The position numbers were made by a program, and so were the translations under genes. Of a DNA stretch of 41,136 nucleotides, positions 1 to 13,967 are shown in pieces. The first letter of the stretch is position 1. Each line of letters begins with the position of its first letter. The notes below the pieces were generated by a model that had not been told where the DNA came from, did no database searches, and saw nothing but the letters and a program-made list of their open reading frames with translations. Source of the DNA: Myxococcaceae bacterium. GTDB lineage: Bacteria > Myxococcota > Myxococcia > Myxococcales > Myxococcaceae. The DNA lies in NCBI GenBank assembly GCA_016793725.1, contig JAEUJP010000504.1:1-41136 (forward strand), read 5' to 3'.

Positions 1-557
1 CGGTCGGCGCCCTCGGCGACGTAGCGCTCTTCGAACAGTGTCCACGAGGCCGGCACCCGAACGCGGTTCGGCGTGTTCTCGCCCACCGTCACCCCGCCGT
101 CGATGATGCGCTCACGCAGGTACAGCCCCACCAGAAACCCCGCGTCGGTGCTCGACCGCACCCACGCCCGCGCGCACCAGACCTGCCCGAAGACCGTCGG
201 CCGCACCTCGTTCGCGGCCGTCACCATCACGCCCGCCTGGTCGCCTCCATCGAGCGAGTACAGCCGCACGCTGCGCCTGCCCTCGTGCACGTACGTCGTG
301 TCGGTGATGATTTCACCGCCCGACGCCGCCGGCATCGACCGCCAGAACAGCGGGTTGCCCGCGTCGTTCACCTGCTCGAAGCTCGGGTTCAAGAGCCAGT
401 TGTCGGGCCCCGCATCGACCGCCTCGGGCAGCGTGCAGAACCCCTCGAAGCACACCCAGCCCGCCCCGCACGCGCGCTCGGCGTCGCAGCGCCGCCCGCT
501 CTCGTCGAGCGGCGGGGGGAAACACGCCGCCAGCAGCAGCACCGGCGCCGCCCTCAC
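1..557 (-). CDS. Lipoprotein with carbohydrate-binding-like domain (3' end cut by window)
   Basis: The reading frame runs from a GTG at 557 off the left edge, so only the N-terminal 185 residues are visible. The start overlaps the stop of the upstream gene by 4 nt (GTGA), which implies translational coupling. The N-terminus is a lipoprotein signal (hydrophobic stretch ending LLAAC, cysteine at residue 12). It is followed by a short Cys-rich segment (four cysteines within about 20 residues), then a domain starting WLLNPSFEQ with alternating beta-strand pattern. That opening resembles CBM4/9-type carbohydrate-binding domains (N-P-S-F-E, then a conserved W). The likely location is the outer membrane, exposed to periplasm or surface. 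The carbohydrate-binding assignment is inference from the opening motif only. Confidence 0.7.
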   Translation of the reverse strand, partial: MRAAPVLLLAACFPPPLDESGRRCDAERACGAGWVCFEGFCTLPEAVDAGPDNWLLNPSFEQVNDAGNPLFWRSMPAASGGEIITDTTYVHEGRRSVRLYSLDGGDQAGVMVTAANEVRPTVFGQVWCARAWVRSSTDAGFLVGLYLRERIIDGGVTVGENTPNRVRVPASWTLFEERYVAEGAD

Positions 558-1447
558 CACGCGAACACCGCAGCGCCCACGCCCGACGCGATGGCCGCCA
601 CCACGAACAGCGACGTGCCGAGGGTCGCGTCGCGCGCGCTCAGCGCGTGCGCCTCACGCGCCGTATCGGCCCAGTCACCCGGAGGCATCGACCGGTCGTC
701 GAGCAGCCTCGCCCGCGACATCGCGTTCACCTGAAACACCGCACCCACGATGACCGCCGCGACCCCGAGGCCGACCGCCACCCATGCCGGCCACCGCTGA
801 ATGCGCGGCGTCTCGCGCACGGTCATCGTGCCCACCGCCACCATCGGCACCGTGTGGCGCTGCGGCGCCTCTGCCGTGCCGTAGCCGGCCACCGGCTCGC
901 CTCGCGCATCGAACGCCGTCACGAACCACTCGAGCGTGCGCAGCGGCGCGCCGGCGAGCTCGACCGTGAGCAGGCCCTGCTCGGGCGTGAGCGGAGTCAC
1001 CGACCACACCTCATCGGTGTCGACGCGCAACCTCAACGCGTAGCTGCTCGCGCGCTGCCACGGGTCGACCACGCGCAGCCGCGCCAGCCCCGGCGGAGCC
1101 GCGAGCGGCACCAGCTTCAAATATTCTTTCGGAAACACCTTCTCTTTCGCCGAGTCGAACGCCTCGAGAATTTTCGGTGAGAGCGAGCGATCAGGTGCGA
1201 ACGACGGCTCGACCACGAGCAGCGCTTCGTAGGTCGCCTGCGCTTCGCCGCGCCGGCCCTCGGCCGCGTAGCAGCGCGCGAGCAGGTCGAGCACCTCGGC
1301 CTGCTCGGCCTCGCGCTGGCCCGGCACCTGCCGCGCCACCTTCAGCTGCTCGATGGCCTCGGCGAACTTCAGCTCGGTCGCGAGGCGGCGGCCCTCTTCG
1401 AGGTACGGGTTCGCGACCGCGAGAATGATCAACACCGGCGTGAGCAT
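554..1447 (-). CDS. Membrane protein with TPR-like N-terminal half and two C-terminal TM helices
   Basis: 297 residues from the ATG at 1447; the open frame extends further upstream, but that part is in the divergent promoter region. The N-terminus is a short hydrophobic stretch (MLTPVLIILAVA), probably a signal peptide or anchor. Residues about 15-95 are helical and look like tetratricopeptide repeats (LLARCYAAEGRRGEAQATYEALL). A beta-rich middle follows. Two hydrophobic helices lie near the C-terminus (around WVAVGLGVAAVIVGAVF and the last 20 residues). This architecture is common among uncharacterised myxobacterial envelope proteins. It shares a 4-nt overlap with the lipoprotein gene downstream, so the two are probably one operon, divergent from the CxxCH/DUF1501 module. 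Function is not recognised. Confidence 0.75.
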   Translation of the reverse strand: MLTPVLIILAVANPYLEEGRRLATELKFAEAIEQLKVARQVPGQREAEQAEVLDLLARCYAAEGRRGEAQATYEALLVVEPSFAPDRSLSPKILEAFDSAKEKVFPKEYLKLVPLAAPPGLARLRVVDPWQRASSYALRLRVDTDEVWSVTPLTPEQGLLTVELAGAPLRTLEWFVTAFDARGEPVAGYGTAEAPQRHTVPMVAVGTMTVRETPRIQRWPAWVAVGLGVAAVIVGAVFQVNAMSRARLLDDRSMPPGDWADTAREAHALSARDATLGTSLFVVAAIASGVGAAVFAW

Positions 1448-1493
1448 TCGACAGCCCAAACATGACTGAACCCTCGAAGATTGCGAAGGTTTC

Positions 1494-1516
1494 GCTGTCC
1501 TCCCGGGGAGGACAGC
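1494..1516. promoter_or_regulatory. 10-bp perfect inverted repeat in a divergent promoter region
   Basis: GCTGTCCTCC at 1494-1503 is followed by a 3-nt loop and its exact complement at 1507-1516. It sits in the 171-bp gap between divergent genes starting at 1447 (-) and 1619 (+). It therefore cannot end transcription of either gene. It could be an operator or a 5'-UTR hairpin of the + strand transcript, about 100 nt before the start at 1619. No T-tract follows. Confidence 0.55.
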
Positions 1517-1618
1517 CCTCAGCGCTTCGACACACCAGACGCACCTTTGGGCTGCCTCCAACCGCCCGACTTCCCCCGCGCTTCACCCTGGCCTCGCCCT
1601 TGAAGAGCACGCCCTCTC

Positions 1619-2863
1619 ATGCGCCCGCTCGCTGCTCTCGTATTGCTCTGCGCCGCCTGCGACGGCCGCATCGACGACATGGTCGTACCCGCCGAGCCGC
1701 CCCCCGCGCCCACCCGCATCGACGGCGCTTTGACCACCGGCTCGACGCCCGCACGCAGCGAGCTCGCCCCGCTCGAGCCCGGCCTGCTGCTCGGCCTCGC
1801 CTCGGGCGCGCTGCACGTCGCCGGCGCCGAGACGCTGTACCGCTTCGACCGCGAGACGAGCACCTTCACCGCGGTGCCCGTCGGCGAGGTCGGCGAGTCG
1901 ATGCGCACCGGCCCCGTTCGCCACCTCGCCCGCCGCAGCGCCGGCCTCTTCGTCGTCGCCGAGGGCGGCATCTTTCACGACGCGATGGGCCGCCTCTTGC
2001 GCTCGCCGCTCTCGCAGAACATCTCTGCCGTCGACGTTCGTGCGCTCGATGACCTCGGCGAAGGCGCCGACGAAGAGCTCTGGCTCACCACCACCGACGG
2101 CGTCGACCGCGTTCGCGCCGGCGTGAAGACCCGCGTCGACCTCTCGATGAGCGGCGCGCTGCTCGCCCCCGACCTCGCCGCCGCCGTCGAGAGCGGCAAG
2201 GGCCTCGTGCTCTCGAACGGCAACCTCTTCTCAGTCGACCTCGGCGCCCGCACGGCGAAGTGGGAAGCGCAAGGTGTGCCCGCCGTGAACGCCGTCGCGC
2301 GCGGCGACGACGGCACCCTCTACCTCGCCACCACGAAGGGCCTGTGGTCGCGCACCCGCACCGGCGTGGTGAACGTGTACTCGTTCGCCGCCGCCGGTGA
2401 AGAGCCGAAGGCCGTCGCCGACGTCACCACCGCGTTCGGCGAGGTGCTCGTCGCGGTCGACGGCCAGGTCGCCGAGCTGACGCATGCGGGCGCGGCGGGG
2501 TTCGGCGCCCTCGCCTCACCGAAGGCGAAGGGCATCGCGCGCGACGCGAACGGCGACACGTTCGTGCTCGACGGGCCGAAGCTGGTGAAGCTCGCGACCG
2601 GCCGCGCAGTCTCGTTCGAGGCCGACGTGAAGCCGTTCATGGTGCAGCACTGCACGCGCTGCCACACCACCGGCGCCGAATATTCGCCGGTGTTCGACCT
2701 CGCCTCGTACGCCGTGGTCAGCGAGCCGGCGTTCAACGCGAAGGTGATTCAGCGCCTCACCGCGAACGGCCGCGGGCCGATGCCGCCGCCAGACGTCGAG
2801 GTGCTGACGAGCAGTGACTACGCCGTGGTCTTGCGCTGGGTCGCAGGAGGTATGCAGCCGTGA
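1619..2863 (+). CDS. Beta-propeller lipoprotein with C-terminal CxxCH heme motif
   Basis: 414 residues. The N-terminus is a lipoprotein signal (LVLLCAAC, lipid cysteine at residue 14), followed by a Pro/Ala-rich linker. Residues about 50-330 read as repeated beta-strands with recurring DDGTLYLATTKGLWS-type blades, as in Ig-like or YVTN-type propellers that track values. The C-terminal 90 residues carry a single C345-T-R-C348-H349 motif with a later MPPP segment, resembling the planctomycete-type cytochrome c (PSCyt) domain, where a Met serves as second ligand. It is the first gene of a four-gene run; its stop overlaps the next start (GTGA), and an AGGAGG at 2845-2850 serves that start. The product is likely a membrane-anchored extracytoplasmic electron carrier or sensor. 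Heme attachment is inferred from the motif. Confidence 0.85.
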   Translation: MRPLAALVLLCAACDGRIDDMVVPAEPPPAPTRIDGALTTGSTPARSELAPLEPGLLLGLASGALHVAGAETLYRFDRETSTFTAVPVGEVGESMRTGPVRHLARRSAGLFVVAEGGIFHDAMGRLLRSPLSQNISAVDVRALDDLGEGADEELWLTTTDGVDRVRAGVKTRVDLSMSGALLAPDLAAAVESGKGLVLSNGNLFSVDLGARTAKWEAQGVPAVNAVARGDDGTLYLATTKGLWSRTRTGVVNVYSFAAAGEEPKAVADVTTAFGEVLVAVDGQVAELTHAGAAGFGALASPKAKGIARDANGDTFVLDGPKLVKLATGRAVSFEADVKPFMVQHCTRCHTTGAEYSPVFDLASYAVVSEPAFNAKVIQRLTANGRGPMPPPDVEVLTSSDYAVVLRWVAGGMQP

Positions 2864-4509
2864 ACCGACTTCTCTCTCTCTTCGTGCTGTGTGCCGCCGC
2901 GGCTGCTTCGGCGCAGGTTCCCGCCACGTGTGATCAGCCGCGTGAAGTCGACCGGTACCAGCTCCTGCGCCGGCTCTCGCTCGACCTGCGCGGCAAGGTG
3001 CCTTCGCTCGCCGAGTACGAGGCGCTCGATGCCCAGTCGTCGGTGCCGCAGAGCACCATCACCTCGATGGTCGCGAGCGACGACTTTCGCCGCGCGATGC
3101 GCGCGTACCACGAAGACCTGTTCTGGCCGAACGTCACCAACGTTCAGCTCAACAACACGAACTCGATTCTCGTGATGCGCGCGAACGAGCCCGCGTGGAG
3201 CATCGCCAGCACCGGCCGCCGCCGCACCCTGCGCGGCGACGCCGACGTCAGCACCACGCAGCACGGCCTCACCTGCGGCGACTACGAGCAGACCCACTTC
3301 CTGCCCGGTGGCGGCTTTCGCCCCGACCCCGCGTTCGTCTTCACGCAGACGCAAGGCGGCGTGACGGTGCGCCAAGAGGGCTGGCGCATGGTGGCCCCGT
3401 ATTGGGACCCGGCGAACCCCATCAAGGTCTGCGCCTACGACGCGCAAGAGACCGCCACCGTGATGGTCGGCGGAGCGGCCACTCCCTGCTACGACGCCAC
3501 CGCGTTCAACAACGCGTCGTGTGGCTGCGGCGCTGGCCTCGTGAACTGCTTCGGCCCCGCCGCGAACGTCAGCCGCGTCGTGCAGACGTCGCTGCGCGAG
3601 CAGCTCGGCCGCTCGGTCGACAAGGTGACGACCGGCGGCCGCCCGTACACCGACCTCGTGCTCGCCACGCGCGCCGACGTGAACGGCCCCATCAACCAGT
3701 GGAAGAAGACGTTCGCGAGCAACTACTCGCTCACCCGCGTGTACTCGCTGCCCGACGACGGCGAGCAGCTGTCGAGCACGCTGCAGTTCACCGACACCGA
3801 CACGTGGCAGAGCGTCGACCGCGGCCCGATGCACGCAGGCGTCACCACGCTGCCCGGCTACCTCTTGCGCTTTCAGACGAACCGCGGCCGCGCGAACCGC
3901 TTTCGCATCGACTTCGAGTGCCAGAGCTTCGTGCCTCCGTCTGACGTCGAGGCGCCGGGCACGCAGGGCTGCACGAGCGAAGGGTCTGACCTGACGAAGC
4001 GGTGCACGTGCCGCTACTGCCACCAGATGCTCGAGCCGATGGCGTCGCACTGGGGCCAGTTCAGCGAGGCCGGCAACACGTTTCTCGCCGTGCAGGCGGG
4101 CGCGGGCAACGCGTCGCCGGGCAACTTCTTTCGCAAGGCGAACAACTGCGTCGGCTCGAACAGCGCGTTCTGCAACCGGTTCTACATCACGGCGACCGAC
4201 GCCGATAACCCGGGCGCGCTGATTCCCTACCAGTACGCAGACGCTCAGCACGCCGACATCACGGCGGCGCTCGCGGGTGGGCCGCGCAAGCGTGCTCAAG
4301 AGATCGTCGACAGCGGCGTGTTCGGCCGGTGCGCCGTGAAGCGCGTCTTTCGCAACTTCGTGAAGCGCGACATGCGCGTCGAGGGGGCGACCACCGACGA
4401 GCTCGCGCTGCTGACCTCGCTGGCCGATGGCTTCAAGACGAACGGCTACAGCTTCCCCTGGCTCGTCGAGCAGGTCGTCTCGCTGCCCCAGTATCGGAGC
4501 GTTCGATGA
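2860..4509 (+). CDS. Exported DUF1549/DUF1585-like protein with CxxCH motif
   Basis: 549 residues from a GTG preceded by AGGAGG. The first 18 residues form a cleavable signal peptide (ending ASA). The next segment (RRLSLDLRGKVPSLAEYEAL, then a DDFRRAM block) matches the N-terminal pattern of the DUF1549 (PSD1) family known mainly from Planctomycetes. A Cys-rich middle contains C384-R-Y-C387-H388 followed by a Met-rich stretch (QMLEPM), suggesting one c-type heme. The C-terminal 80 residues (VFRNFVKRDM...VVSLPQYR) resemble the helical DUF1585-type end. It overlaps both neighbours by 4 nt. The function of these families is unknown; the co-occurrence with a DUF1501 gene downstream is the classical pairing. 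An oxidoreductase or hydrolytic surface complex is inference. Confidence 0.85.
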   Translation: MNRLLSLFVLCAAAAASAQVPATCDQPREVDRYQLLRRLSLDLRGKVPSLAEYEALDAQSSVPQSTITSMVASDDFRRAMRAYHEDLFWPNVTNVQLNNTNSILVMRANEPAWSIASTGRRRTLRGDADVSTTQHGLTCGDYEQTHFLPGGGFRPDPAFVFTQTQGGVTVRQEGWRMVAPYWDPANPIKVCAYDAQETATVMVGGAATPCYDATAFNNASCGCGAGLVNCFGPAANVSRVVQTSLREQLGRSVDKVTTGGRPYTDLVLATRADVNGPINQWKKTFASNYSLTRVYSLPDDGEQLSSTLQFTDTDTWQSVDRGPMHAGVTTLPGYLLRFQTNRGRANRFRIDFECQSFVPPSDVEAPGTQGCTSEGSDLTKRCTCRYCHQMLEPMASHWGQFSEAGNTFLAVQAGAGNASPGNFFRKANNCVGSNSAFCNRFYITATDADNPGALIPYQYADAQHADITAALAGGPRKRAQEIVDSGVFGRCAVKRVFRNFVKRDMRVEGATTDELALLTSLADGFKTNGYSFPWLVEQVVSLPQYRSVR

Positions 4510-5276
4510 AGCCCCTCCACCTGGCGCTGCTCTTCGTCACCGCCTGCACCGTCGACCCCATCGGCGGCGGCAAGGGCGGCCCCTCGGTCAGCACCACCGA
4601 CACCGACGTGCTGCCGTTCGACCACGCGGGCATCGGCGGCACGGGCGGCGGCGCTTCCGCCACGGGCGGCGGCTCTTCGGGCACGGGTGGCGGCTCTTCC
4701 GGCACCGGCGGCGGCTCAGCGGCCGGCGTCGTCAGCGGCGGCTCGCAGCGGCTGTCGGTCGCGCAGCTCCGCAGCTCGCTGCCCGTCATTCTCGGCAGCG
4801 ACAGCGCGGGCAACCCGGTCACCTGGCGCATCGGCACCGCCGTCGGCTTCGACACGCGCAGCGCGACGCTCGGTGAGGCCGACTACCTGAACCGCGTCGA
4901 CGACGACCTCGAGCCTTCGCCGCTGTACCTGAAGTTCATGTTCGACATGGCGAAAGACAGCTGCAACCGCGTCATCACCGCCGACGCGGCGCGCGCCGCG
5001 GGCGCGAAGGTGCTCACGCGGTTCGTCGGGCCGACCGACACCGTCACGAGCGCGCGCGCCAACGTCGACCGCAACCTGAGGTCACTGCGGCTGCAGTTTC
5101 ACGGCATCAAGGTCGAAGGCGGCGACGACGCCGGCATCGCGGCGTACCGCAAGCTGTTCGACGACGCGGTGAAGGGGGCGGCCGGCGCCGGCAGCCCGAC
5201 CGCGGCTCACGTCACCGAGGGCTGGCGCGCGGTCTGCGTCGCGCTGCTGACTGCGCCCGAGTACCACCTGTACTGA
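4506..5276 (+). CDS. Gly/Ser/Thr-linker lipoprotein of the CxxCH/DUF1501 module
   Basis: 256 residues from the ATG at 4506, chosen because it overlaps the preceding stop by 4 nt (ATGA) and opens with a lipoprotein signal (LLFVTAC, cysteine 13). An upstream extension of the frame lies inside the previous gene. Residues 45-72 are four copies of a 7-residue Gly-rich unit, followed by a helical domain of about 180 residues starting around RLSVAQLRSSLPVILG and ending AALLTAPEYHLY-like. No CxxCH is present. The C-terminal end resembles the closing segment of DUF1585/1595-type domains. It probably anchors or scaffolds the module at the outer membrane. No specific family is recognised. Confidence 0.8.
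   Translation: MKPLHLALLFVTACTVDPIGGGKGGPSVSTTDTDVLPFDHAGIGGTGGGASATGGGSSGTGGGSSGTGGGSAAGVVSGGSQRLSVAQLRSSLPVILGSDSAGNPVTWRIGTAVGFDTRSATLGEADYLNRVDDDLEPSPLYLKFMFDMAKDSCNRVITADAARAAGAKVLTRFVGPTDTVTSARANVDRNLRSLRLQFHGIKVEGGDDAGIAAYRKLFDDAVKGAAGAGSPTAAHVTEGWRAVCVALLTAPEYHLY
4638..4721 (+). repeat. Four tandem 21-bp units coding a Gly-rich linker
   Basis: Units at 4638-4658, 4659-4679, 4680-4700 and 4701-4721 differ by only a few bases and each encodes a Gly-Thr-Gly-Gly-Gly-Ser/Ala-Ser-type heptad in the lipoprotein gene. Because the unit length is a multiple of three, copy-number change would lengthen or shorten the linker without a frameshift. Confidence 0.85.
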
Positions 5277-5293
5277 CGAACGAGGAACCCGCC

Positions 5294-6712
5294 ATGAACC
5301 GCTCACGACGCAGCTTCCTCGAGATCGCCGCCATGCTCGGCGGAGGCGTCTTCTTCAAACAGACCTTCCTCGGCAACGCCGCCCGCGCCCAGGCGACCGA
5401 GCCGCGCTTCCTCGTCATGGCCTACTTCGGAGGCGGGTGGGACCAGCTGCTCGCCCTCGACCCGCGCGACGCCACCGCCGCCGCCTACCAGTACGCCGCC
5501 GCGCGCGCCGCCGGCGGCTCGGGCATCTTCCCCGCGTACGCCGACATGGCCGCGGGCGACCCGCTGATGAACCCGGTGATGACCGCGACCGGCGGCACCG
5601 GAGTTCAGAGCCGCGGCGCGCTGACGTTCGGCCCGGCGATGCCGGCGTCGCTGATGGACCACTACCAGGACCTCGCCATCATTCGCGGCATGACGATGGA
5701 CACGCTGACCCACGAGGTCGGCCGCCGCTACAACCTGACCGGCAAGTTTCCCCGCGGGCTCGCGCCGAACGGCTCGTCGCTCAACACGGTCGTCTCGGCG
5801 CAGACGGCGGCGATGGGCGGCGACCTGCCGAACCTCGCCATCGGCTCGGAGTCGTTCAACGAGACGTACCCGGCGGCGGCCACGGCGGTGCGCGTGAACA
5901 ACGCGGCCGACGTGCGCACGGTGCTGCAGCCTCAGGCGGTGAACCCGCAGCTGCTCGCGGGCAGCGACGGCGCGCTGCAGGCGTTCGAGGCGAACAGCGA
6001 CACGTGTGAGGCGCACGGCTACGACGCGACCGGCCTCGTCGCCGCGTTTCGCGCGAGCAAGGTGCAGGCGCGGCAGATGACGAACTCGGGCGCGGCGGCG
6101 ATGTTCAACTTCGTGGTGCCGCCGCCCGCGTCGCTGACGTCGCTGTACTCGGCGTTCGGGCTGAACGTGGCGGCCGACCTCACCGGGCCGCGCGGGCGTG
6201 CGGCGCTCGCCGCGCAGGCGATGACGCAGGGCGTGTCGAACGTGGTGTCGGTGCAGCTCGCGAGCGACCTCGACGACCACTTCGACGAGGCGGGCTCGCA
6301 GTCGGTTCAGCTGCGCGACGGGTTCGACGCGCTCGGGCGGTTGATTGCGTGGCTGAAGGGCACGAACGTACCGGGCACGTCGAAGTCGTACTGGCAGTGC
6401 ACGACCATCATGGCGTTCAGCGAGTTCGCGCGTACGCCCATGATCAACTCGCGCGACGGCCGCGACCACCACCTCGCGTCGAGCATGTTGATCGGCGGCG
6501 CCGGCCTGAAGGGCAACCAGGTGTTCGGCGCCACGTCGAACAAGGGCATGGGCGCCCAGAAGTTCAACTTCGCGACCGGCGCGCTCGACGCCACGAACGG
6601 CTACCCCATTCGGCCCGCCGACGTTCACGCAACCTTGCTCACCGCGATGGAGCTCGACGCCTCGCACCTGTCGAATCAGTCGCCGAGGGTGATTGGCAAG
6701 CTGATCGCCTGA
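5294..6712 (+). CDS. Tat-exported DUF1501 family protein
   Basis: 472 residues; a GAGGA ribosome site lies at the right distance from the ATG. The N-terminus has a twin-arginine signal (S-R-R-S-F-L-E, then a hydrophobic stretch ending ARAQA), so the folded protein is exported, probably with bound metal. The mature start (LVMAYFGGGWDQL) and the C-terminal motifs E377-F-A-R-T-P and G389-R-D-H-H are those of DUF1501, a member of the alkaline phosphatase/sulfatase superfamily. The usual FDPKP after the first motif is replaced by LDPRD, marking a divergent subgroup. Length is normal. It is the fourth gene of the module, 17 nt after the lipoprotein. Substrate is unknown; hydrolysis of a phosphate or sulfate ester is a family-level guess. 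Confidence 0.88.
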   Translation: MNRSRRSFLEIAAMLGGGVFFKQTFLGNAARAQATEPRFLVMAYFGGGWDQLLALDPRDATAAAYQYAAARAAGGSGIFPAYADMAAGDPLMNPVMTATGGTGVQSRGALTFGPAMPASLMDHYQDLAIIRGMTMDTLTHEVGRRYNLTGKFPRGLAPNGSSLNTVVSAQTAAMGGDLPNLAIGSESFNETYPAAATAVRVNNAADVRTVLQPQAVNPQLLAGSDGALQAFEANSDTCEAHGYDATGLVAAFRASKVQARQMTNSGAAAMFNFVVPPPASLTSLYSAFGLNVAADLTGPRGRAALAAQAMTQGVSNVVSVQLASDLDDHFDEAGSQSVQLRDGFDALGRLIAWLKGTNVPGTSKSYWQCTTIMAFSEFARTPMINSRDGRDHHLASSMLIGGAGLKGNQVFGATSNKGMGAQKFNFATGALDATNGYPIRPADVHATLLTAMELDASHLSNQSPRVIGKLIA

Positions 6713-6818: not shown

Positions 6819-6870
6819 TGGTCTTCTTCTCGTGCGTTGGGTTGGCCGGCCGCTTGCCGTGCGTCGTGCC

Positions 6871-7806
6871 ATGCACGACTTCGTCAAGGTGTCTCAGCTC
6901 GCTGCGAAGCAGGCGGGCGTCGTCTCCCGTGCCCAGCTCGTCGCGCGTGGCGTCACGCCTTCCGCGCTCTTCCGCGCACACGAGCAGGGCTTGCTCGTGC
7001 CTCACCAGCACCCGGGCGTCTATCGGCTGGCGAGCGCCGTCGTCGGTCGAGCGACACATCTTCACGCGGCACTGCTTTGGGCGGGCGATGGTGCCGTACT
7101 CTCTCACGTCACGGCCGGCTGGCATTGGAAGCTCGAAGGGCTCGGAAAGAAGCCGCCCGATGTCATCGACGTCTCGGTGCTCAACACGACGCGCCTGGTG
7201 CCGAAGAAGAACGTTCACGTCTGGCGAACGCGCACGCTCGTCGCCATCAAAGACTACGCGCCGCTGAGCGGCATTCCCTGCACCAGCCTCGCGCGCACGC
7301 TCATCGACCTGGCCGCGGTGCTCGACAAGCGCGCACTCGAGCACGCCTACGACTCGGCGGTGCGGCGCTCGGCCGAGAACCGTACGGCGCTGTTCGATGC
7401 GATCAGACGGCTCGGCACGCGCGGCCGTCGCGGCATTCAAGCGCTCATCGACATCGCGACGCGCGAAGAGCTGGGCCCGACGCACAGCTGGCTCGAGAAC
7501 GAGACGCGGCAGGTGATGCGCGAGGCGAAGATTCGGCTGCCGCTCCCGCAGCTCGAGGTTCGCGACCGCAACGACAAGTTCATCTGCCGCCCCGACTTCG
7601 TGTGGCCGGGGCAGATGGTCGCGCTCTTCTGCGACAGCTGGGAACATCACGGCGACAAGCGCGCTCGCTTCGAGCTCGACCCGGTTCAACGCAATCAGCT
7701 CGGTCTCGCCGGCTGGCTGACACTCGCGGTCACGCACCGAAGACTGCTGAGGGACCCGAACGGGTTCATCGGTGAGCTCAAGCAGGCGCTGGGCCATTCT
7801 GAGTGA
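6871..7806 (+). CDS. AbiEi-type antitoxin-domain protein fused to DUF559 (endonuclease-fold) domain
   Basis: 311 residues from the ATG at 6871; an upstream in-frame start at 6832 adds 13 residues that do not fit the family. The N-terminal 55 residues (VSQLAAKQAGVVSRAQLVARGV...HPGVYRLAS) are the winged helix typical of AbiEi antitoxins. The C-terminal 90 residues (ICRPDFVWPGQMVALFCDSWEHH, then RFELDPVQRNQLGLAGWLTL) follow the DUF559 pattern related to Vsr-type nucleases. The conserved acidic residue in the central strand appears replaced (ALFCDSW), so nuclease activity is doubtful. No AbiEii nucleotidyltransferase toxin lies beside it; it stands alone between two unrelated operons. It may be a DNA-binding regulator or remnant of a type IV toxin-antitoxin system. 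Confidence 0.8.
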   Translation: MHDFVKVSQLAAKQAGVVSRAQLVARGVTPSALFRAHEQGLLVPHQHPGVYRLASAVVGRATHLHAALLWAGDGAVLSHVTAGWHWKLEGLGKKPPDVIDVSVLNTTRLVPKKNVHVWRTRTLVAIKDYAPLSGIPCTSLARTLIDLAAVLDKRALEHAYDSAVRRSAENRTALFDAIRRLGTRGRRGIQALIDIATREELGPTHSWLENETRQVMREAKIRLPLPQLEVRDRNDKFICRPDFVWPGQMVALFCDSWEHHGDKRARFELDPVQRNQLGLAGWLTLAVTHRRLLRDPNGFIGELKQALGHSE

Positions 7807-8255: not shown

Positions 8256-10174
<1,919 letters not shown>

Positions 10175-10178
<4 letters not shown>

Positions 10179-10498
10179 GACGGTCTCGCCCCCTCTCTGG
10201 CCGCGCCGAACGTACGCGCGGCGCGCGGTTCGAACCGAGCCGGCGGCGAGCCCTCACCCGTCAGCCCGAACGTGTTCACGAGGTGACGCACGTCGTTTCG
10301 CGCCAGGCGGTGGCTGAGACGTCGGGCACGTTCGACACGTTTCGCTCGAGCGACGGCGACGGTGGAGCCGCGCGTGAGCGCGTCGACGAGGAGCACGGTG
10401 TGGCCGGTCTGGGGCCCCGAGGCGACGGTGAGCTGGCGGCGGCGCGGGCCGGCGGCACCGGGAGCTGAAGAAACGAGAGGCTTCGTCGCGCCGGTCAT
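10175..10498 (-). CDS. Small protein between two kinase genes, possible FHA-related remnant
   Basis: 107 residues from an ATG at 10498 (GAGGG about 10 nt upstream); an ATG at 10516 is an alternative. Its stop overlaps the TTG start of the kinase gene by 4 nt, the best argument that it is real. Residues about 21-60 (LTVASGPQTGHTVLL, then GSTVAVARAKRVERARRLSHRLAR) faintly resemble the opening of FHA domains, which bind phosphothreonine and often accompany kinases, but the conserved GR and SxxH positions are not clear. The rest is Arg-rich. Function is unknown; the possibility of a spurious frame remains. Confidence 0.4.
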
Positions 10499-10517
10499 GA
10501 AGCAGGCCCTCAGCATC

Positions 10518-10562
10518 GCTGCTCGTTCAGCTTCAGTCGAGTCGAGGCGAGGCACGAGCAGC
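10518..10562 (-). promoter_or_regulatory. 9-bp inverted repeat inside the kinase operon
   Basis: GCTGCTCGT (10518-10526) and ACGAGCAGC (10554-10562) are perfect complements around a 27-nt loop. They lie in the 139-bp gap between the membrane kinase gene and the small gene, ending 19 nt before the latter's start. Possible attenuator or operator; no T-tract. Confidence 0.35.
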
Positions 10563-10637
10563 TGTTCAGGGGTTCGGGCCCGGAGCGCTCGCGTGCCGCC
10601 GACGGCTCGATTCGTGGCTCGCGGCAGCAACCGCCCG

Positions 10638-11873
<1,236 letters not shown>

Positions 11874-11881
11874 CGTTCGAA

Positions 11882-13405
11882 TCAGCCTCGCCCGCCGGCC
11901 ATCGTAAGCCGGGCGAGGAGCTGCGCGCCTGCCACCGTCTCGTCGTGAGTCATCAGCGACTCGACGTTCTGGCGCATGCGGTACGACCAGTTGTGCGGGC
12001 CGATGGAGCCGGGCAGGTTCACGCGCGTCGTCTCGCCGTACAGGTCACCCCAGGGAATGACGCACAGGTTCGACGACGCGTTTTCGGCGGCGGCGATCAT
12101 GGCCTCGAGCAGCTCGGGGCTCCAGCCGGCGCCGGGCGGGAAGAACTTGTGCAGCTCGGGGAAGGTGCGGCAGCAGGCCTCACGCTCCCACTGCGGCGCG
12201 CTCTGCCACCACTCGCGCAACGTCTCGGTGTCGTGGGTGCCCGTCGTCGCGAGCGAGATGGCCGGGTACTGGCGCGGGTTCGCGTAGACGCCGTCTTCAC
12301 GCGCCCACCGCATCACGCGGTAGCCGGGCAGCTCGAGCATGTCGAGCGTCTTGCGCACGAAGGGCGTCATCACGCCGAGGTCTTCGGCGACGATGCCGGC
12401 GCCTTCGCTGAGCAGCCGAAAGTGTTTTTCGCCGAGCGCCTGCTGCTGCGGCTCGTGAGAGGGTATGAAGCGGCCGCGCGGCGTCTGCGCATCGCGAATG
12501 TACTGGCGGAAGTAGCCGATGGCGTGGTCGACGCGGCGCACGTCGAACGCCGCGGCGGCGGCGCGCGCGCGGCGGCGGAGCCACTGGTAGCCCTCGCGCT
12601 CCATCGCGTCGAAGTCGAACCAGGGCAGGCCCCAGTCTTGGCCGTCGGCAGCGAAGTCGTCGGGCGGCACGCCGAGCCTGCCCTCGATGCGAAGCAGGTG
12701 AGGAAACGCCCAGGCGTCGGCGCTGTCTTTGCCGATGATGAACGGCTCGTCGCCGCACAGCAGCATGCCGTGCGCCTTGGCCTCGTCGCGAACCCTCTTC
12801 CATTGCGCGTCGGCGACCCACTGCAGCCACGCCTGATAACGAATCGCGCGCTCGTGCTGGTGCTTCACCTCGTCGAGCGCGGCGGGGTGGCGCTTCGCGA
12901 GGGGCTCGGGCCACTCCCACCAGGCCTTGTGCTGCTGCAGGTCAGAGATGACGGCGAAGAGCGCGAACGTCTCGAGCCAGTCGCTCTGCTCGATGCGGAA
13001 CCTGTCGAGCGCCGCGTGGTCACCCTTCTTCTCGAAGCGGGCGAACGCGCGCGCGAGGGCGGCCTCTTTCAGCGGGAAGACGCGGTCGTACTGCACCGTC
13101 GGAGCAGCGCGAGCCAGCTCGAGCGAGGCGCGCTCGTCGGCGCTGAAGTCGGTGGCGCCTTCGAGCTGGCGCAGGTCGATGAAGAGCGGGTTGAAGCCGA
13201 ACGCGCTGCGCGTCGAGTACGGGCTCGGGTCGCCGGGCGCCGTGGGCAGCAGCGGCAGCACCATGAGCAGGCGCTGCTTGGCGGCCTGCATCCACTTGAA
13301 CAGGGGCCCGAAGCTGCCGAAGTCGCCGATGCCGGCGTCGGTGGAGCTGCGGAACGAGAACAGGGGCAACATGATGCCGCTCGTGCGGCCCTGAGGCAGA
13401 GACAT
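11882..13405 (-). CDS. malQ: 4-alpha-glucanotransferase (GH77, amylomaltase)
   Basis: 507 residues from the ATG at 13405; longer upstream frame positions overlap the divergent glycosylase gene and do not match the family. The start SGIMLPLFSFRSSTDAGIGDFG is the usual GH77 opening. Catalytic signatures are visible: V-R-R-V-D-H (nucleophile Asp), I-V-A-E-D-L-G (acid/base Glu) and T-G-T-H-D-T (transition-state Asp). Length is normal. The enzyme transfers alpha-1,4-glucan segments between maltooligosaccharides in maltodextrin and glycogen metabolism in the cytoplasm. It heads a run with two Ser/Thr kinase genes, the first only 8 nt downstream, and is divergent from the DNA glycosylase gene. Confidence 0.95.
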   Translation of the reverse strand: MSLPQGRTSGIMLPLFSFRSSTDAGIGDFGSFGPLFKWMQAAKQRLLMVLPLLPTAPGDPSPYSTRSAFGFNPLFIDLRQLEGATDFSADERASLELARAAPTVQYDRVFPLKEAALARAFARFEKKGDHAALDRFRIEQSDWLETFALFAVISDLQQHKAWWEWPEPLAKRHPAALDEVKHQHERAIRYQAWLQWVADAQWKRVRDEAKAHGMLLCGDEPFIIGKDSADAWAFPHLLRIEGRLGVPPDDFAADGQDWGLPWFDFDAMEREGYQWLRRRARAAAAAFDVRRVDHAIGYFRQYIRDAQTPRGRFIPSHEPQQQALGEKHFRLLSEGAGIVAEDLGVMTPFVRKTLDMLELPGYRVMRWAREDGVYANPRQYPAISLATTGTHDTETLREWWQSAPQWEREACCRTFPELHKFFPPGAGWSPELLEAMIAAAENASSNLCVIPWGDLYGETTRVNLPGSIGPHNWSYRMRQNVESLMTHDETVAGAQLLARLTMAGGRG

Positions 13406-13436
13406 TGAGAGGTGGAGATAGCAGAGTGCGGCCGCT

Positions 13437-13967
13437 TTGCAGCGCCTCGACGCTTCGTTCTTCTCGCGCCCCACCCTCACCGTCGCGCGGGCCCTCTTGG
13501 GCCAGCGGCTCGTGCTCGGGCGCCGCGTCGGGCGCATCGTCGAGACCGAGGCGTACCTCGGGCCGCACGACCTCGCGTGCCACACGGCGAAGGGCCGCAC
13601 CGCGCGCAACGAGGTGATGTTCGGGCCGCCCGGCCACGCGTACGTCTTCCTCGTCTACGGCATGCACTTCTGCTTCAACGTGACGACGGGGCGCGGCGCA
13701 GCCGTGCTGATTCGCGCGCTCGAGCCGGTCGAGGGCTACTCGGGCCGCTCCGACGGGCCCGGGCGGTTGACCGCCGCGCTCGGCATCACGCGGAAGCACA
13801 ACGGCATGCGACTCGATGCGCCGCCGCTGTGGCTCGCCGAGGGCGAGCGGGTGAGGCACATCGAGCGCGGGCCGCGAATCGGAGTCGACTACGCGCGCGA
13901 GTGGGCGAAGAAGCCATACCGCTTCTGGGTGCGCGACAACGTGCACGTGAGCCTCCGCTCGCCCTGA
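13437..13967 (+). CDS. DNA-3-methyladenine glycosylase (AAG/MPG family)
   Basis: 176 residues from a TTG, the only in-frame start near the family's N-terminus; a purine-rich GGTGGAGATAG precedes it. The signature G-R-I-V-E-T-E-A-Y is present, with E38-A-Y40 matching the catalytic Glu and intercalating Tyr of human AAG. Also present are the MFGPPGHAYVFLVYGMHFCFNV block and GPGRLTAALGI. The enzyme excises alkylated and deaminated purines from DNA. It is slightly short but has all conserved blocks. It is monocistronic, convergent with a membrane protein gene, and its stop lies within a REP-like repeat. Confidence 0.93.
   Translation: MQRLDASFFSRPTLTVARALLGQRLVLGRRVGRIVETEAYLGPHDLACHTAKGRTARNEVMFGPPGHAYVFLVYGMHFCFNVTTGRGAAVLIRALEPVEGYSGRSDGPGRLTAALGITRKHNGMRLDAPPLWLAEGERVRHIERGPRIGVDYAREWAKKPYRFWVRDNVHVSLRSP

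Follow-up and report, generated by a model that had tools for sequence, protein, structure and literature searches.

Genes for PSCyt/PSD proteins and for their DUF1501 or DUF1552 partners occur in dozens per genome in Planctomycetes, Verrucomicrobia, and at least one myxobacterium, and their function is unexplained. PSCyt genes have been termed redox-related (PMC2754498), and a connection with oxygen and carbohydrate use has been drawn (PMC5615132); the function of PSCyt/DUF1501 proteins is nevertheless stated as unknown (PMC5615132), and what has been put forward on redox, carbohydrate, and stress roles amounts to suggestions only (PMC2754498, PMC5587647, PMC5122149). The closest described systems are the canonical PSD/PSCyt3 proteins (domain order DUF1587-1595-1592-1588-1585), which have a DUF1552 partner and are found in Planctomycetes, Verrucomicrobia, and Myxococcota, and the PSCyt2-PSD1 (DUF1549/DUF1553)-DUF1501 pairs of Planctomycetes, exemplified by RB10051-type proteins (PMC2754498) and by WD40 genes that adjoin DUF1501 (PMC5587647). 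Here, we describe a four-gene operon of this kind on contig C879 of genome G000, a 9.75-Mb draft from the Myxococcaceae, the GTDB family to which the named Myxococcus/Archangium-type matches also belong; the window that we analyzed is this whole stretch of 41,136 nucleotides (nt), and positions refer to it. By profile comparison, the operon is a divergent, split, and order-swapped form of the planctomycete-specific PSD/PSCyt3 protein.

The four coupled genes, termed P0001 to P0004, span positions 1619 to 6712, with overlaps of 4 nt (GTGA and ATGA) between the first three and a gap of 17 nt before the last. This layout agrees to the base with an initial annotation made from the DNA alone, as do the CxxCH motifs at residues 345 to 349 of P0001 (CTRCH, nt 2651 to 2665) and 384 to 388 of P0002 (CRYCH, nt 4009 to 4023). 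The annotation had also made its reading depend on the four genes being kept together in related genomes, and they are: the set is conserved across Myxococcaceae and Polyangiaceae and, rearranged, in other Myxococcota. P0002 relatives were found in 86 of the 145 genomes of the order, about 11 of them close (43 to 60% identity) and the remainder at about 30%. The complete P0001-P0002-P0003-P0004 order occurs in G133, G050, G051, G052, G091, and G137 and in the Polyangiaceae-type loci L041 and L043; in this comparison, the contigs of G131, G135, and G136 stop early. A locus of G094 (L060:463-6255) contains the full set plus a second P0002, the two copies flanking P0003 and P0004. Distant Myxococcota have the order P0002-P0003-P0004 or P0003-P0004-P0002, and in genus g6 (L072) the P0001-type cytochrome comes after the DUF1501 gene. 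Wherever the sequence of a distant locus is long enough, a DUF1501 gene is nearby, and nearly all of these loci have a P0003-type gene as well, none being found in L046/L064. G000 itself holds three more operons of the split type, on contigs C598, C219, and C773. No signaling domain or transporter was found within the conserved gene set. We aligned 15 relatives of P0001, 28 of P0002, 27 of P0003, and 24 of P0004; the invariance of the CxxCH motifs among the P0001 and P0002 relatives, at identities down to 22 to 27%, and the recurrence of the gene set in other genomes show that the arrangement is not due to chance. The four genes are a real, conserved operon, correctly noticed in the initial annotation.

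That annotation had guessed at DUF1549/DUF1585- and DUF1501-type families, and the Pfam matches bear it out, although P0002 itself stays below every cutoff (24.8 of 29.8 bits for DUF1549 and 12.3 of 27 for DUF1588). PSD2/DUF1585 (PF07624) is matched by 22/28 P0002 relatives (best, 1.2e-6), PSCyt2/DUF1549 by 21/28, PSD1/DUF1553 by 19/28, PSCyt3/DUF1588 by 17/28 (best, 4.9e-4), and PSD4/DUF1592 by 16/28, and the DUF1549-like N-terminal part of P0002 gave a match of 2.4e-5. P0003 relatives match PSD5/DUF1595 (PF07637) only, in 6 of 27 cases. We compared both families, profile against profile (hhalign), with an alignment of 19 one-piece PSCyt3 proteins from G000. The P0003 family corresponds to columns 48 to 237 of this alignment, beginning at the signal/lipobox region (97.9%, E = 2.6e-12), and the P0002 family to columns 214 to 586 (99.8%, E = 1.4e-28). 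This coverage implies that the canonical protein was cut near the PSD5/PSD4 boundary and that the gene for its C-terminal part comes first. The PSCyt3/DUF1588 part with its CxxCH, the PSD2/DUF1585 C terminus, and the adjacent DUF1501 partner are all present, whereas PSD5/DUF1595 is not found within the P0002 polypeptide; its presence in the separate P0003 makes the operon a split variant. The "undescribed myxobacterial version" of the initial annotation can thus be put more sharply, as a split and order-swapped canonical protein. P0003 is, as had been noticed, a lipoprotein (lipobox VTAC, read from the sequence), but the Gly-rich linker (nt ∼4632 to 4727) from which it took its description is not a conserved part, being long in Myxococcaceae and absent in the Polyangiaceae orthologues.

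P0002 has a Sec signal with a cleavage site that reads ASA-Q. Its residues C384, C387, and H388 are invariant in 28/28 relatives, and an insert of ∼85 residues contains the invariant cysteines C191, C210, C221, and C223 (the last two in CGCG, residues 221 to 224) and C230. Sequence searches of the PDB with P0002, P0004, and their profiles yielded no relatives, and the AlphaFold model of P0002 (predicted local distance difference test [pLDDT], 83.9) had no match with an E value below 6 among PDB folds. From the CxxCH motif, its invariance, and the three c-heme assembly proteins encoded in G000, we infer that P0002 carries a c-type heme, which would sit in a fold that has no solved relative and would lack an evident distal ligand. 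For C430 and C438, we considered a disulfide and, alternatively, heme ligation by Cys, the latter suggested by the example of TfcP.

For the last 75 residues of P0001, the profile of the family gave a match to the solved cytochrome c6 (4gyd; E = 6.3e-6) in which the CxxCH motifs are aligned and Met388 (nt 2780 to 2782) falls in the conserved MP column; the Met of this column is the axial ligand in class I cytochromes. Among the P0001 relatives, CxxCH is conserved in 15/15 and Met388 in 14/15, and on this sequence evidence the C terminus belongs to the class I cytochrome c domains. The earlier description of both CxxCH products as heme proteins therefore fits P0001, which has the domain and the axial Met, while P0002 has the motif only. 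The beta-propeller front proposed for P0001 agrees with weak matches of its N-terminal part to Reg_prop (2/15 relatives) and PQQ_2 (1/15), at E values of only 0.03 to 0.06. As to export, the signals assigned earlier were recovered for P0002 (Sec), P0003 (lipobox), and P0004 (twin arginine), but P0001 proved to be a lipoprotein, not a plain Sec substrate, its lipobox cysteine C14 being kept in at least 90% of the relatives.

P0004 matches DUF1501 (PF07394) over residues 43 to 459 with 75 bits (cutoff, 27). It begins with a twin-arginine motif (SRRSFL), of which R5 and R6 are kept in at least 90% of its relatives, and is predicted to be exported by the twin-arginine translocation (Tat) pathway. 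Its invariant residues include D50, D56, T137, H140, D327, H329, S376, R380, N385, R390, D391, and H392. The best PDB matches of its predicted structure (pLDDT, 85.4) in Foldseek were carrageenan and other sulfatases and members of the alkaline-phosphatase superfamily. This predicted fold agrees with the metal-dependent hydrolase-like protein of the initial annotation; the sulfatase nucleophile signature C/S-x-P-S-R, however, occurs neither in P0004 nor among the conserved columns of its family, so "hydrolase-like" is a statement about fold and not about activity. The helix from residue 140 opens with the invariant H140, which would place this residue at the helix start where the superfamily nucleophile is expected. 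An attempt to map the active site by comparing the DUF1501 family with the sulfatases of G000 (hhalign) gave no usable alignment.

The choice of partner follows a rule in G000. The genome has 46 PSD5 and 49 PSCyt3 matches, mostly in one-piece proteins of 500 to 700 residues, and 41 of its 43 DUF1552 genes (PF07586, now HXXSHH in Pfam) lie beside one of the ∼45 one-piece PSCyt3 genes. DUF1501 is close to each of the four split-type P0002 genes; the remaining DUF1501 genes are near a PSCyt3 gene in two cases and near neither in 10. At L151, a Tat-type DUF1552 gene stands directly 3' of a one-piece gene. The expansion of PSCyt3/DUF1552 genes in G000 equals that of Rhodopirellula baltica, which reportedly has 41 copies of PSD1/PSC2 domains. 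A tblastn search of plasmids for DUF1501 neighbors gave just two weak matches, in Vibrionaceae.

The operon unit includes a regulatory region at 1494 to 1603. It contains a perfect palindrome, GCTGTCCTCC-CGG-GGAGGACAGC, whose core TGTCCTC-N5-GAGGACA (1496 to 1514) is the only perfect copy in the G000 genome. Alignment of the upstream regions revealed the palindrome as TGTCCTS-N5-SAGGACA, together with an element TGGC-N7-TTGC. The palindrome is present with at most one mismatch in 8/9 orthologous Myxococcaceae loci, the window included (the exception is L055), and perfect TGGC-N7-TTGC is found at the same place in all 8 Myxococcaceae loci other than the window and, in the Polyangiaceae orthologue L041, 48 nt upstream of the start, against a background of 0.07 per kb (both strands of the loci searched). 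From the palindrome start to TGGC, the distance is 101 to 103 bp in the orthologues; in the window it is 93 bp, shorter by roughly one turn of the helix. These elements form a putative sigma-54-type promoter with an upstream activator site, and G000 encodes one RpoN. The palindrome can fold as a hairpin, but as it lies between divergent genes and has no T-run, we favor an operator over a terminator.

Across the family, perfect palindromes are rare (21/96 genomes, most with one). In G131, G135, and G136 (genus g26; loci L085, L081, and L082), one also precedes a distant P0002 paralogue, which suggests a common regulator for the operon and the paralogue. Two of the paralogue promoters in L081, L082, and L085 are without the -24/-12 element and show a further palindrome, TTGA...TCAA. 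Beyond the operon and the g26 paralogue, we discarded other candidates for palindrome control, as the remaining sites are rare, weak, or scattered; a one-mismatch copy in G000 (C397) had no clear link. A sigma-54 activator with a PocR domain and a Fis-type helix-turn-helix is encoded near the operon in four genomes (L061:2879-4300, L053:10712-12373, L059:3271-4695, and L039:40-1488), directly divergent from it in three of the four, and might be taken for the palindrome binder in genus g26. Its distribution does not match that of the palindrome, however: G000, G051, G052, and G091 all carry the palindrome but not the activator, whereas G130 and G132, of the same genus g26, encode the activator but contain no operon and no perfect palindrome. 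We therefore rejected this candidate as very improbable.

Table 1. Features of the operon, its control region, and the divergent neighbors (positions in the window)
Feature	Position	Strand	Remarks
P0006, lipoprotein	1..560	-	cut by contig end; relatives have a CBM_4_9-like domain just below cutoff
P0005, divergent tetratricopeptide repeat (TPR) protein	554..1456	-	neighbor kept in three genomes of a second genus
Palindrome, likely operator or upstream activator site	1494..1516	.	kept in orthologous Myxococcaceae operons
Sigma-54-type -24/-12 promoter, TGGC-N7-TTGA	1589..1603	+	16 nt before P0001 ATG
P0001, lipoprotein, probable propeller-like N-terminal part and C-terminal class I cytochrome c (predicted)	1619..2863	+	414 aa
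P0002, secreted PSCyt2/PSD4-PSCyt3(DUF1588)-PSD2(DUF1585)-type protein	2860..4509	+	GTG start; 549 aa
P0002, Cys-rich insert	3295..3555	+	residues ∼146-232; absent from one-piece PSCyt3 proteins
P0003, lipoprotein, variable Gly-rich linker and PSD5/DUF1595-equivalent domain	4506..5276	+	256 aa
P0004, Tat-type DUF1501, predicted alkaline-phosphatase-superfamily-like fold	5294..6712	+	472 aa

The divergent pair of the TPR protein and the CBM_4_9-like lipoprotein (window 1 to 1456; upstream of the operon in L055, L056, and L057) is kept beside the operon in two genera. The pair may be coregulated with the operon, with which P0005 possibly shares the control region. Directly 3' of the operon, the gene at 6832 to 7806 encodes an AbiEi-like N-terminal domain with a weak C-terminal match to MTES_1575/restriction endonuclease (REase); it showed no conservation in the orthologous loci. 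Two serine/threonine protein kinases and a GH77 4-alpha-glucanotransferase are encoded on the minus strand at 8256 to 13609, and near some orthologous operons there are genes that resemble this group by kinase-domain similarity only.

We propose that the four genes, as a single regulated operon, encode a redox module located in the envelope. P0003 and P0002 would be the N- and C-terminal parts of what elsewhere is one polypeptide, and the lipid of P0003 would anchor the assembly. After folding in the cytoplasm and export through Tat, P0004 would be its catalytic core, likely containing metal; the c-type heme of P0002 would accept electrons from P0004, and the His/Met cytochrome c of P0001 would pass them towards the respiratory chain. 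Expression would require sigma-54 together with a palindrome-binding regulator. The proposal builds on the gene order, homology, split, invariant motifs, class I cytochrome domain, and conserved promoter elements computed here, and it would entail a heme in P0002, a metal in P0004, complex formation, this direction of electron flow, and the use of sigma-54. We hold the scheme as a whole (DUF1501 metal core, P0002 relay, P0003 anchor, P0001 outlet) tentatively, at somewhat less than an even chance. Because of the CBM-like neighbor and the planctomycete and verrucomicrobial context, carbohydrate is a weakly favored guess for the substrate. A wider generalization, by which DUF1501 and DUF1552 proteins would be unrecognized exported metallo-oxidoreductases on an alkaline-phosphatase-type scaffold and PSCyt3 a c-heme relay of non-cytochrome fold, with a split, sigma-54-controlled version in myxobacteria, seems unlikely to us.

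Several observations weigh against the redox module. P0002 has neither a cytochrome fold nor a conserved distal Met or His, H388 being the sole invariant His/Met column among the 28 relatives, and as no solved fold was matched either, it is not a cytochrome by fold. The P0004 model reaches a template modeling (TM) score of only 0.36 to solved members of the superfamily, though with E = 6.6e-5 and a probability of 1.00. The alkaline-phosphatase superfamily is not known to include a prominent oxidoreductase. The -12 element of the window is TTGA instead of TTGC, and the regulator that binds the palindrome was not found. Elsewhere in bacteria, DUF1501 and DUF1800 genes form adjacent pairs that are found together with chitin synthase genes (PMC5122149), and this pairing speaks against redox chemistry as an obligatory role.

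The same pairing speaks for the main rival, in which P0004 is a metal-dependent hydrolase of phosphate, sulfate, or other esters, P0002 and P0003 serve it as a dedicated chaperone or docking platform, and the hemes have a structural or sensory part instead of a catalytic one. DUF1800 proteins are not known to carry heme. The sulfatase matches of P0004, at the E value given above, and its invariant Asp/His set are in line with such an enzyme, and Myxococcus has a non-redox cytochrome c, TfcP (PMC8833165). A hydrolase would, however, lack the sulfatase nucleophile signature and would have H140 at what is probably the start of the nucleophile helix, and if no electrons are transferred, the presence of a class I cytochrome c whose axial Met is intact has no easy explanation; we regard this alternative as doubtful. 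The two lipoproteins and the possible weak propeller of P0001 would also suit a surface sensor or an adhesion or assembly device, in which the lipoprotein and the split PSD parts attach to a surface polymer, with heme c as a reporter of oxygen or redox state, and the CBM_4_9-like divergent neighbor and the tight sigma-54-type control fit with it. Yet the invariant polar residues of P0004 resemble an active site and the conserved set includes no signaling domain or transporter, which leaves this second alternative quite improbable.

Whichever activity the redox module or its rivals would provide, the split, the partner rule (DUF1501 versus DUF1552), and the promoter with its palindrome are new here. 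The operon has the parts in four small genes, in a phylum with tractable laboratory species (Myxococcota), reveals which part partners which enzyme family, and offers a switchable promoter. With the parts separated and the promoter switchable, the role of heme-DUF1501 modules becomes testable part by part.

Compared with known systems, the P0001 C terminus shares CxxCH, spacing, and axial Met with class I cytochromes c (cytochrome c6 and cbb3 subunit P types), but its domain is fused to a lipoprotein N-terminal part of ∼330 residues, propeller-like in character. P0004 has its predicted fold class in common with sulfatases and the alkaline-phosphatase superfamily and differs from them in the absence of C/S-x-P-S-R, in its other invariant residues, and in having no profile match to solved members. 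TfcP of Myxococcus xanthus resembles the operon proteins as a myxobacterial envelope CxxCH protein with unusual distal ligation (PMC8833165), but it differs in fold and context and is a precedent only. The PSCyt2-PSD1-DUF1501 pairs of Planctomycetes share with the operon a DUF1549-like N-terminal part, the DUF1501 partner, and propeller-like neighbors; unlike them, taking the planctomycete side by description, P0002 has a DUF1588/DUF1585-like C-terminal half, and the N-terminal part is in a separate lipoprotein. The likeness to the canonical PSD/PSCyt3 proteins extends to homologous domains over nearly the full P0003 and P0002, the CxxCH in the DUF1588 part, and an adjoining Tat-type partner gene. 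Unlike them, the operon has two genes in swapped order, a Cys-rich insert in P0002, DUF1501 in place of DUF1552 as the partner, and a separate propeller-like cytochrome lipoprotein.

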